A program made the translations under genes and the position numbers. From Clostridia bacterium (GTDB lineage: Bacteria > Bacillota > Clostridia > Christensenellales > Borkfalkiaceae), in assembly GCA_029055875.1 (NCBI GenBank), contig JAIDCJ010000020.1, forward strand, positions 1 through 64,000: DNA of 64,000 bases. Direction: 5' to 3'. Shown one piece after another: positions 20,858 to 24,124 of the stretch (position 1 is its first letter; every line of letters starts with the position of its first letter). The notes beneath the pieces were generated by a model. That model was not told where the DNA came from. It did not search any database and worked only from the letters and a program-made list of their open reading frames with translations.

Positions 20858-21370
20858 TTACAAAAAGCGACATAAAAAGCAGCCGAATACCACCGTCACG
20901 AAATTTGCAAATAGCGCAATGAGTACGGGCTTCACGAGCTTCTTGTTTTTCACGCCCGCGAAATACACGGCGGAAATATAGAACACCGTTTCGCTCGAAC
21001 CGTAGGAAACGCACGCGCACCGCGCAATATAGCTGTCCGCGCCGTAGGTAGAGAGGATTTCCGAAAGAAGCGCGGTGGAACCGCTTCCCGAAAAGGGCTT
21101 CATAATCACGAGCTTGGAAATTTCGGGCGGAATGCCGAGGAACTTGAATGCGGGCGATAAAAAGGAAGTCAGCCCCGCCGAAAGCCCGCTCCGCTCGAAC
21201 AGCTCCGAGAGCATGAGAATTGCGGCAAGATAGGGAAAGAGCGAGAGTACGAGCGGCGCCGCCTCCTTCACGCCGTCCGTAAAACAGTCGTACAGCTTCA
21301 CCCGCCGAACGAGCGCATAGACGAACAGCGCGAGAAAGAGCGCGGGGATAACGAGGGCAACGTACTTCAT
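20858..21370 (-). CDS. spmB: Spore maturation protein B
   Basis: 170 residues, mostly hydrophobic. The nucleoside-recognition (Gate) domain pattern is seen in MKPFSGSGSTALLSEIL and CVSYGSSETVFYISAVYFAG. SpmB acts with SpmA in dehydrating the spore core and in heat resistance in Bacillus and Clostridium. Its start overlaps the spmA stop by four bases, so the pair is coupled. Length is close to the family norm. It implies a sporulating lineage. Confidence 0.92.
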   Translation of the reverse strand: MKYVALVIPALFLALFVYALVRRVKLYDCFTDGVKEAAPLVLSLFPYLAAILMLSELFERSGLSAGLTSFLSPAFKFLGIPPEISKLVIMKPFSGSGSTALLSEILSTYGADSYIARCACVSYGSSETVFYISAVYFAGVKNKKLVKPVLIALFANFVTVVFGCFLCRFL

Positions 21371-21927
21371 TTGCGTGCTTTCCTCTTACGGCAGAAAATC
21401 ATAACGAGCAAAACGCCGAGCACGGTAGAAAACAGCGTTGCCAAAAGGGTGGGCAGAAAGATATCCGAGGGCGAAGAGGAGCCCGCGGCAAGGCGGAGCG
21501 CAATCACGGTAGTGGGCAAAAGCTGCAAGCTGGTTGCGTTGAGTACGAACAGCATGTCCGCGGCGTAGTGGTTTTTCGCCGCGCAGAACTTTTCCACCGC
21601 CTTCACGCCGAGCGGCGTAGGCGCACCGGGCAGCCCTAAAAAGTTTGCGGAAAGATTACAGCTTGCAAGATACACGGCGTCTTTATCGTCCGTCTTGAAC
21701 AGCCGCCGCGCAAGCGGCGTTGCGGCGCGTGAGAGCTTCCCCGCAAGCCCGCTCCGCTCTAATACCTTAAAGAATCCGAGCCACACGCAGTACACGGCAA
21801 GCAAAGACAGCGAGAGCGTCGCGGCCTTTTCCCCGCCCGACAAAAGCGCGGGCAAAAACCCCTCGGGGTCGAAAATCAAAAACATGGCGGCGGAAAGAAG
21901 AAACACCGCCGCAAAAATTCCGTTCAC
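21367..21927 (-). CDS. spmA: Spore maturation protein A
   Basis: 186 residues from a GTG start. Membrane protein with the Gate-domain pattern VYLASCNLSANFLGLPGAPTPLGVKAVEKF (about 85-115). It partners SpmB in spore-core dehydration. A sequence resembling a sigma-E promoter ends five bases before the GTG, so mother-cell expression is plausible. No Shine-Dalgarno is apparent. Confidence 0.92.
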   Translation of the reverse strand: MNGIFAAVFLLSAAMFLIFDPEGFLPALLSGGEKAATLSLSLLAVYCVWLGFFKVLERSGLAGKLSRAATPLARRLFKTDDKDAVYLASCNLSANFLGLPGAPTPLGVKAVEKFCAAKNHYAADMLFVLNATSLQLLPTTVIALRLAAGSSSPSDIFLPTLLATLFSTVLGVLLVMIFCRKRKARK

Positions 21928-22005: not shown

Positions 22006-23712
22006 TTAGTCGAAAATCTGATAATACTCATAACCGGGGGAGGAAGACTGCAAGATTTGCGCGTTCTGCACGGGGTCGGTTACGTCGATTTCCACTGCCG
22101 GCGAACTGCTTCCCATATAACGGAACCAGTTTGCCGTATCGGCAAACGTGATTTTTTCAAGCGAACCGCCGCGGAACGCATTGGCGTAAATCATGTATTT
22201 ATTTCCGTTCACTTCGGCGGGCAGGGTGATTTCCGTAGCGTTACCCGCATACAGCATCAGGTTGTACGAACCGTTTTCTTCTACAAAGAACACGAAGTCG
22301 CCGATTTTCTTCACCTCGGTTTTGTCGGGTGCGGTAATAATTTCAAGATCACTCGAAGCGTTGCGCGCGGCTTTTTCAATCGTTTCGCTATCCACTTCAG
22401 ACTTGTTGATAATGCGTACGAGTCTTCTGTTTTGCTCGAACGCAAAACTGCCGAGGTCGGTAAGGCTTTCGGGCAGCGTAACTTGTACGAGCGCGCAGTC
22501 CGAGAACGCACATATGCCGATTTCCGTCATGCCCTCGGGAAGCTGAGCGGAGTACAGGCGGGTGTTGTGTGCGAATGCGTATTGCCCGATTTCCGTTGCA
22601 CCCAGAATTTCAAGCTCGCGAATATCCGTGTATTTATAGAACGCGTAGCCGCCCACCTTTTCAACCTCTGCGGGAATGGTCAGCTTGCCTTCAACTGCGT
22701 TTCCGTCGATGGTGAGCTGCGCCTTTCCGCTGTTCAAGGGGTTGGACCAGGTATTTTTGAATTCTACCGCGCACCACTCGGCAATTGTACCCTCGAATAC
22801 GACTTCCGTCAGTTTCGAGGAGTCGTAGAACACGTTCGTTCCGACGCTTTTGAGCGTGGCGGGCAGAGTTACGGAAACGGGCTTGCCTATCTTGTGCGAG
22901 GAAATCTCCTCGTCGGGGAATTCCTCCGTGCGCAGGAACACTAGCTCGCTCGGGAACTCCGTACGCATGGTGCCTTCAAAATTGCTCTTGTAAATGGTCT
23001 CGAGCGTCGCCGCGTACCGTTTGAACTTGCAGTTCATAAAGGTTGTGTCTTCAAGCGTTACGGAATCGGCGCTGAGCGTTACGCTTTCGAGCGCGGTGCA
23101 ATCACTGAATACCGACCGGCCGAGCGTCAAGCTCTCTTCGCCGAGGAACTCCACCGTTTTGAGTGCAGTACAGTCTTCAAACACCATATTTTCCGTTTCC
23201 ACGTTGCCCTTCACGGTAATTGCCGTAAGGAGCTCGTTGTCCTCGAATGCCTGCGTGCCGATTTTCGTGACGGTAGCGGGAATTTCAATCGTTTCCAAGC
23301 CGGTGGAAGAAAATGCAAAATGCTCGATTTCCGTAACGCCGCTGCCAAACTTGACGGTTTTCAGATTTTTGCAATCTTCAAATGCGCCGTAGCGAATGAC
23401 CTTTATACTGTCGGGCAGGGTAATGCTTTTAATGCCGCTTTCCGCGAATCCCTTCCCGCCGACCTCGGTCACGGGCTTGCCCTTGTAGCTTGCGGGAACA
23501 ACGATATCCGCGTTATCCCAGTCGCCCTTCGTGTCGGACGAAAGCTCTACGCCGTACGAGAGATCGTCTTCCGTAAGACGGTAATAAAGTCCCTTCGTGC
23601 CGTCCGTCTTATCGTCGCCACCTCCGCCGAAGAGGTCGCAGCCGACGCACGCCCCCAGCGCGGCGCACCCGATTGCAGCCGCAGAGAGAACGAACAAAGA
23701 TTTTCTTTTCAT
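22006..23712 (-). CDS. BspA-type leucine-rich-repeat surface lipoprotein
   Basis: 568 residues. A signal peptide ends in a lipobox (LGAC, Cys22), then comes a short Gly/Asp-rich linker. From about residue 70 to 560 there are LRR_5 repeats (for example GFAESGIKSITLPDSIKVIRYGAFEDC and the AFSDCALVQVTLPESLTDLGSFAF stretch). Such proteins are anchored outside the cytoplasmic membrane and in other bacteria bind host or bacterial surfaces; the ligand here is unknown. AAGGAG precedes the ATG. Its promoter has a nine-G tract in the spacer, which suggests ON/OFF switching. Confidence 0.92.
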   Translation of the reverse strand: MKRKSLFVLSAAAIGCAALGACVGCDLFGGGGDDKTDGTKGLYYRLTEDDLSYGVELSSDTKGDWDNADIVVPASYKGKPVTEVGGKGFAESGIKSITLPDSIKVIRYGAFEDCKNLKTVKFGSGVTEIEHFAFSSTGLETIEIPATVTKIGTQAFEDNELLTAITVKGNVETENMVFEDCTALKTVEFLGEESLTLGRSVFSDCTALESVTLSADSVTLEDTTFMNCKFKRYAATLETIYKSNFEGTMRTEFPSELVFLRTEEFPDEEISSHKIGKPVSVTLPATLKSVGTNVFYDSSKLTEVVFEGTIAEWCAVEFKNTWSNPLNSGKAQLTIDGNAVEGKLTIPAEVEKVGGYAFYKYTDIRELEILGATEIGQYAFAHNTRLYSAQLPEGMTEIGICAFSDCALVQVTLPESLTDLGSFAFEQNRRLVRIINKSEVDSETIEKAARNASSDLEIITAPDKTEVKKIGDFVFFVEENGSYNLMLYAGNATEITLPAEVNGNKYMIYANAFRGGSLEKITFADTANWFRYMGSSSPAVEIDVTDPVQNAQILQSSSPGYEYYQIFD

Positions 23713-23746
23713 ATTTCAACTCCTTAATATCGATTTCGTTTTAGAT

Positions 23747-23775
23747 ATTATCACACGGGGGGGGGTGCTTGTCAA
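23747..23775 (-). promoter_or_regulatory. Promoter with poly-G tract in its spacer
   Basis: Minus strand: TTGACA (23770-23775), spacer of exactly 17, GATAAT (23747-23752). On the plus strand, nine consecutive Gs occupy 23757-23765, inside the spacer. Gain or loss of a G would move the spacer away from the optimum. Confidence 0.75.
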
Positions 23776-23872
23776 CAGCTTTTTGCGGGAGGTAAAAAAT
23801 TGCATTCGACAAAATACGACAAACAAAGACTTTTTACTACAAAATAAGACTGTCGAAAAAGGGGGGATAAAC

Positions 23873-23950: not shown

Positions 23951-24124
23951 ATGGAAGCACTTTTGGAAAAAACAAGAGAAAAAGTAGAAGCAAAGGAACT
24001 TGCGTCGGAAATCGCGTTGGCATTGAAAGATTACTTCGTAGCGAAAGTCGCACAGCAAGGGAACGCAATAAAAATGCAGTTAGAGGGCGGGCAGGAGTTT
24101 TATCTGACCGTGAGAGAAATTTGA
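23951..24124 (+). CDS. Small protein of unknown function (57 aa)
   Basis: 57 residues: a charged amphipathic helix (LLEKTREKVEAKELASEIALAL) and then a short strand-turn-strand (AIKMQLEGGQEFYLTV). AAGGAG lies nine bases before the ATG and a near-consensus promoter lies upstream, so it is a real gene. A 44-residue protein at 57651 has the same helix-hairpin layout (IIVIFSNGTKRTVSV); homology is possible but not proven. No function is recognised. Confidence 0.75.
   Translation: MEALLEKTREKVEAKELASEIALALKDYFVAKVAQQGNAIKMQLEGGQEFYLTVREI

Follow-up and report, generated by a model that had tools for sequence, protein, structure and literature searches.

The window (the whole stretch of 64,000 nucleotides analysed here, part of assembly G000 of a Clostridia bacterium) carries a leucine-rich-repeat (LRR) gene on its minus strand, preceded by a putative promoter with a nine-base homopolymer in its spacer. 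The features of this locus, all on the minus strand, are the following.

22006..23712, minus strand: the controlled gene, encoding a 568-aa BspA-type LRR lipoprotein (Pfam match and lipobox-like start)
23720..23725, minus strand: ribosome-binding site AAGGAG, identified by eye
23745..23750, minus strand: possible alternative −10-like hexamer TAATAT, at 19 bp, picked out by eye
23747..23752, minus strand: −10 hexamer GATAAT at 17 bp, with TG at 23754–23755 forming an extended −10
23757..23765, minus strand: nine-base homopolymer in the promoter spacer, the proposed slippage tract (C on the non-template strand, G on the plus strand)
23770..23775, minus strand: −35 hexamer TTGACA, read from the sequence

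The original prediction had described a minus-strand TTGACA-17-GATAAT promoter with nine Gs at plus-strand positions 23757–23765, and this anatomy was confirmed on the sequence: the spacer, AGCACCCCCCCCCGTGT, reads AGCA(C)9GTGT, and the two hexamers match the consensus at 11 of 12 positions. As in porA-type phase-variable promoters, a homopolymer of at least about eight bases thus stands between the −35 and −10 boxes; relative to the LRR gene it is a poly-C tract on the non-template strand. G7 runs were not enriched in the window, where three overlapping matches, all within this one tract, compare with 4.6 expected. No orthologue of the promoter was found among the 40 relatives searched; in G010, the same search also matched 24 bases around a gene's start codon. 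The nature of the target, predicted to be a BspA-type surface lipoprotein, was borne out as well. The product matches LRR_5 (PF13306) with a Pfam E-value of 5.5e-58 (194.8 bits against a cutoff of 27.7) and begins with the lipobox-like MKRKSLFVLSAAAIGCAALGAC, a signal judged by eye, so that LRR_5 repeats follow a secretion or lipoprotein signal, as expected of a BspA-type protein; the promoter would then control a product that is presumably exposed at the cell surface.

The region separating the LRR gene from a 57-aa ORF (23951–24124) contains a block, ATTCGACAAAATACGACAAACAAAGAC..CTACAAAA (window 23804–23844), also present in three more species of the genus (L002, L003 and L004). In L003 it precedes a small ORF similar to the 57-aa one of the window, and in L002 and L004 its neighbour resembles, by eye, a helix-turn-helix regulator. 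The motif TTCGACAAA inside the block is one that we take to resemble a Spo0A box. Beside the LRR gene, positions 20858–21927 of the minus strand encode a pair of neighbouring Gate-domain proteins (PF07670; just below cutoff in the second), which resemble the spore-maturation proteins SpmA/SpmB.

The assembly of the window (1.61 Mb, 25 contigs, 96% complete) has no G/C run longer than nine, and the number of runs of that length is exactly three. Each one separates a perfect TTGACA from a −10-like hexamer, and each precedes a different gene.

C13:23757, the window run: 17 bp, before the LRR lipoprotein gene
C2:7161, second run: TTGACA-AGCA(C)9ATGTGA-TAGAAT, 19 bp, before a zinc-ribbon protein gene
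C25:11040, third run: TTGACA-(G)9TACTCAATGG-TAGAAT, 19 bp, before the gene for a small membrane protein (by eye)

Looking for further promoters with poly-G spacers in the genome, a check suggested together with the original prediction, thus yielded two more, and two of the three copies have 19-bp spacers. The promoter at C2:7149–7179 (about 1509–1539 of L006, minus strand) is nearly the same C9 promoter as that of the window, although it precedes an unrelated zinc-ribbon protein; the two share almost their whole spacer, which may reflect either a shared origin or convergence. This likeness also bears on the predicted ON state of the nine-base tract. The 17-bp spacing and the extended −10 make ON plausible, but the call is uncertain because the better −10 of C2:7161, TAGAAT, stands at 19 bp, where the window has the poorer hexamer TAATAT. 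As a first guess, the window copy is probably ON, unless TAATAT serves as its −10.

Distribution and spacing of G-tract promoters

To describe the promoter class we used a pattern in which TTGACA and TATAAT enclose seven G, with up to 12 bases on either side of the tract. Of the 103 genomes of the genus (G000 included), 74 contain it, whereas the reversed pattern was found in none of the 103. The anchored C form, which has the orientation of the window tract, was rarer (17 of 103 genomes, 20 places). A looser TTGAC..G7 form was present in 94 of 103 genomes, and its noisier C form in 54. Within the order sample, the G form occurred in 61 of 396 genomes and 27 of 142 genera, counts that include 10 of 14 genomes from the genus of the window. 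The G8 form was found in 4 of 398 genomes of a phylum sample; this pattern is stricter, so the figure is not directly comparable with the G7 counts, and the sample lies nearly all outside the taxonomic class, whose members in it are G000, the sole representative of the order, and 16 further genomes. Scanning GTDB genomes for the G9 form gave at least 120 stretches, and 41 of the 80 titled ones were labelled Clostridia or Bacilli bacterium. Among the matches listed were also Saccharibacteria, Ancillula, Treponema ruminis, Streptobacillus and Helicobacter, as well as two from Candidatus Borkfalkia (NCBI order Christensenellales); a Candidatus Borkfalkia locus (L195) matches the promoter region of a locus of the genus (L089) with 74% identity over 137 bases, so that the genus of the window may belong to this group or stand close to it. 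Among the relatives listed, G009 is the richest in long G runs (14 plus 85 overlapping rows of nine G) and has 9 plus 70 rows of TTGAC..G7, yet only two perfect TATAAT forms.

We also started from the runs themselves. In 30 sampled loci, apparently one per genome in listing order rather than at random and including one from G000, 15 of the 31 runs of nine or more lay within a TTGACA/TATAAT spacer with at most one mismatch, and 16 lay outside a good promoter spacer. When the flanks were shuffled base by base (40 bases on each side; a fit being at most one mismatch in 12 and a spacer of 12–22), an equally good fit arose in 0.2% of trials. A chance origin of the association was rejected by the reversed-pattern and shuffled-flank controls.

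Spacer lengths were then compared between tract-bearing and ordinary promoters. The genus set comprised 127 distinct G promoters among the matches listed, with G9 in 70, G8 in 24, G10 in 20, G7 in 10 and G11 in 3; the order set comprised 100 distinct promoters after exclusion of exact repeats and of rows from the genus of the window. The ordinary set was drawn from perfect-hexamer promoters of G015 and G000 (150 of 716), of which five with G/C runs of 6 or more were excluded, leaving 145. Ordinary promoters had a 17-bp spacer in 118 of 145 cases, and spacers with A/T runs of 6 or more had this length in 14 of 14 and those with G/C runs of 4–5 in 13 of 17. By contrast, only 9 of the 127 promoters with seven or more Gs in the genus (among the matches listed), 9 of the 100 from other genera of the order, and 8 of 122 with nine or more from the collection scan (among the matches listed) stood at 17 bp, so that the avoidance of this length was repeated in all three sets. 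The spacers of the G7+ promoters instead peaked at 15–16 and 18–20 bp, with a full span of 11 to 30. When 334 such promoters were pooled, 26 had 17 bp, 65 had 16 bp, 49 had 18 bp and 67 had 19 bp; spacers of 17 bp thus made up 26 of the 140 at 16–18 bp (p = 8e-5). As many as 248 of the 334 lay within two bases of 17 bp, so that one or two slips would reach it. Among the 20 C-tract promoters, too few for a test, the spacer was 16 bp in eight, 17 bp in four, 19 bp in six, and 15 and 18 bp in one each.

Promoters with exactly six Gs (35 distinct of 36, after one of 37 rows was dropped because it held a G9 run) were intermediate: 19 of 35 had 17 bp and six had 19 bp, compared with 82 of 95 ordinary promoters at 17 bp (p = 2.5e-4). 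The shift away from 17 bp therefore has no sharp threshold. Helix geometry as the sole cause of the shift is weakened by the A/T-run and G4–G5 promoters, which stay at 17 bp, and by the G6 promoters, which mostly do. The tract itself stands anywhere in the spacer, at offsets of 0–10 from its left and 0–11 from its right end. The median spacer was 16 bp for G7, 15 for G8, 18 for G9, 19 for G10 and 20 for G11 (rho = 0.46), indicating that the flanks do not compensate for changes in tract length; such a correlation would be expected if the tract gains or loses bases, and would arise equally from any flanks that vary independently.

Target genes and tract change between relatives

The genes downstream of the G promoters were biased towards lipoproteins. 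In the genus, 25 of 50 targets carried a lipobox compared with 3 of 40 genes behind ordinary promoters (p = 1e-5), by a crude motif rule whose three baseline hits include two that seem false by eye; another signal or membrane segment, assigned by a similarly crude hydropathy rule, was found in 8 of 50 and 6 of 40 (G015), respectively. The targets in this comparison come from many genomes, whereas all the ordinary promoters belong to G015 (40 of its 95 listed). Pfam analysis of 47 of the 50 target proteins, three doubtful ORF calls being excluded, together with the window protein identified seven ABC transporters, four collagen-like lipoproteins, three BspA LRR proteins (with that of the window) and two DUF975 proteins, besides a serpin, an O-antigen ligase and others. 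Among the 126 targets in the matches listed for the collection scan, 21 had a lipobox, 61 a signal or membrane segment, 33 neither and 11 no readable ORF. At four loci of that scan (L225, L153, L227 and L258), neighbouring paralogues form small local families of secreted or pilin-like proteins, each member with its own poly-G promoter; at three of the four the paralogues differ by one G.

A striking family was found in G002, which has at least 19 G promoters. We fetched 17 of them (L381–L397), and all 16 with a readable gene precede members of one lipoprotein family, 15 of which begin MNTKKWL and continue variably, while one diverged member begins MKAKK. The tract was G8 in 16 of the 17 and G7 in one, the spacer was 15 bp in 16 and 14 bp in one, and TGn precedes TATAAT in all 17. 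The leaders of these lipoproteins are alike, as are their promoters, which suggests copying or gene conversion of promoter plus leader.

To follow the tract between relatives, we aligned ten homologous promoter pairs; four differ in tract length and six, at 75–99% identity, keep it. The clearest case is L265/L266, from two species of the genus (G001 and G058), in which 364 of 368 columns are identical and the sole indel changes G8 to G9 and the spacer from 16 to 17 bp; a difference in tract length between near-identical promoters, as known for porA-type elements, thus occurs in this class. The pair L267/L268 and the paralogues L271/L272 likewise differ by one G each, and in L261/L262 a substitution lengthens the tract and leaves the spacer unchanged. 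Other pairs keep the tract: L269/L270 (366 of 370 identical) have G9 and a 19-bp spacer in both, and in L263/L264 an extra A beside the tract shifts the spacer from 14 to 15 bp. Homologues of unequal tract length were also present in the collection scan (L187/L227/L239, G8–G10; L157/L205, G9/G11). Finally, we followed one ABC-transporter gene, for which a motif located the start codon at 21 of 30 loci. Five species have a C9 or G10 promoter before it, whereas TTGACA-17-TATAAT takes this place in at least three more, indicating gain or loss of the element at the level of individual genes.

Proposed mechanism and alternative explanations

Considering the promoter anatomy, its enrichment, the spacing pattern with its avoidance of 17 bp, the target bias and the tract change between close relatives, all of which are observed, we think it likely that the tract acts, like those of porA and tp0126, as a simple-sequence contingency element, one that serves many genes and mostly rests off the optimal spacing. 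The phase-variable promoter of the original prediction is thereby well supported for the class, through its enrichment in the genus, spacers off 17 bp, tract change between near-identical promoters and surface targets. Strand slippage during replication would add or remove single bases in the G/C run, and the altered distance between the −35 and −10 boxes (consensus matches, hence putative promoters) would change the strength of a near-consensus housekeeping promoter. Such an element would precede many surface and envelope genes in the genus and in several other families of the order. Since its commonest length, nine, usually places the distance 1–3 bp off 17, expression off 17 bp being presumably weak, most copies would rest in a weak state, from which slippage and switching within a population would bring a minority of cells into expression. 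As one of the few copies at 17 bp, that of the window would be in the expressed state now. Selection may favour the resting state if unexpressed surface proteins escape phages, antibodies or a cost, and rare slipped cells would keep the option open. The uniformity of the G002 tracts (16 of 17 at G8) is a counterpoint, as free slippage would predict more variation unless gene conversion or a strong length equilibrium is at work, and the uniform lengths within families and in some close species would argue against very fast slippage.

The same G002 copies, with their 14–15-bp spacers and TGn before TATAAT, fit a fixed element, in which the G-tract spacer alters DNA shape so that the optimum is not 17 bp, the clusters at 15–16 and 18–20 bp represent two functional arrangements, the short one perhaps aided by an extended −10 (TGnTATAAT), and no switching takes place. 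Repeated copies at 15 bp in G083, the several species pairs that keep their tract length and the somewhat shifted G6 promoters point in the same direction, and an excerpt of PMC7864442 suggests that the poly-G close to the tprL −10 works other than through spacing. We consider a fixed element unlikely, however, because the tract position within the spacer is free, the non-template strand may have either G or C even before one and the same gene, 17 bp is still the preferred length with G6 tracts, and spacers span 11 to 30 bp; moreover, the excerpted sources report 17 bp as optimal for tp0126 and a stepwise fall of porA expression from 11G to 9G.

The free position of the tract also speaks against a binding site for a regulator (or a mark for an alternative sigma factor) that recognises G/C runs between the hexamers, as does the variation of spacer length with tract length. 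The hexamers are plain TTGACA/TATAAT, though the search pattern required them. Even with the A(C)9(A/G)TG motif that recurs, by eye, around several C tracts and the almost wholly shared spacer of the two C9 promoters of G000 in its favour, such a site appears very improbable. If G runs had built up in intergenic DNA by chance or by mutation, or were an artefact of assembly, this would account for the 16 of 31 sampled runs outside a good promoter spacer, and homopolymer lengths in short-read assemblies can be off by one. Neither would yield the absence of the reversed pattern from all 103 genomes of the genus or the 15 of 31 runs in promoter spacers against 0.2% with shuffled flanks, and assembly error has no reason to avoid 17 bp in three sets; we give this explanation hardly any weight.

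Returning to the contingency element, we tentatively propose, with somewhat more doubt than confidence, that it forms part of a system that switches many envelope genes at random and is OFF by default, in the uncultured gut Clostridia of this order. Single genes and paralogous lipoprotein families (at least 16 members in one genome) would each have their own G9-centred slippage promoter tuned off 17 bp, and rare slipped cells would express each antigen, providing an antigenic-variation repertoire without recombinases. If so, genes that rest off would be recognisable in genome sequences from the depletion at 17 bp, a minority tract length in deep metagenomes should restore 17 bp at these promoters, and the presence of a gene would say little about which surface proteins are expressed.

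Comparison with known systems

The best-known slippage promoters are those of pathogens, Neisseria and Treponema among them, whereas here such promoters would be a common wiring of surface genes in an uncultured branch of gut Clostridia. We recognised no description of a G-tract promoter class in gut Clostridia in the open-licence literature searched, which is not proof of absence.

A comparable family is vlp of Mycoplasma hyorhinis, a surface lipoprotein family in which each gene has its own promoter homopolymer and switching has been demonstrated. The likeness lies in a lipoprotein family with one promoter homopolymer per gene; the vlp tract, however, is poly-A with demonstrated switching, whereas the present tracts are G/C and their switching is inferred. 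In promoter layout the class resembles porA of Neisseria meningitidis, where a poly-G tract lies between −35 and −10 and expression falls in steps from 11G to 10G to 9G (excerpt of PMC3639595). Yet porA is one gene of a proteobacterium, and the present class covers many genes of uncultured Clostridia, with lengths usually off 17 bp. The poly-G tract of tp0126 in Treponema pallidum occupies the same position, with an optimum at 17 nt (excerpt of PMC7864442, citing earlier work); tp0126 is a single spirochaete locus, and its likeness to the class is one of promoter layout.

The gut examples that we met, in excerpts of their sources, were mostly DNA inversions, with one case of slippage, in Bifidobacterium. 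In Bifidobacterium breve, a slippage switch controls two pilus clusters (PMC9187656) and, like the present class, would vary a surface structure of a gut commensal; it concerns two clusters of an actinobacterium, however, and the likeness, as far as that excerpt goes, rests on slippage rather than on tract position. Invertible promoters of gut bacteria also switch surface genes of commensals at random (PMC11868660, PMC13343947), but in the excerpted accounts they do so by DNA inversion, whereas here the homopolymer itself is the proposed switch. Compared with the known slippage promoters, what is new in the present class is its scale, over many loci, and the avoidance of 17 bp by its commonest lengths.
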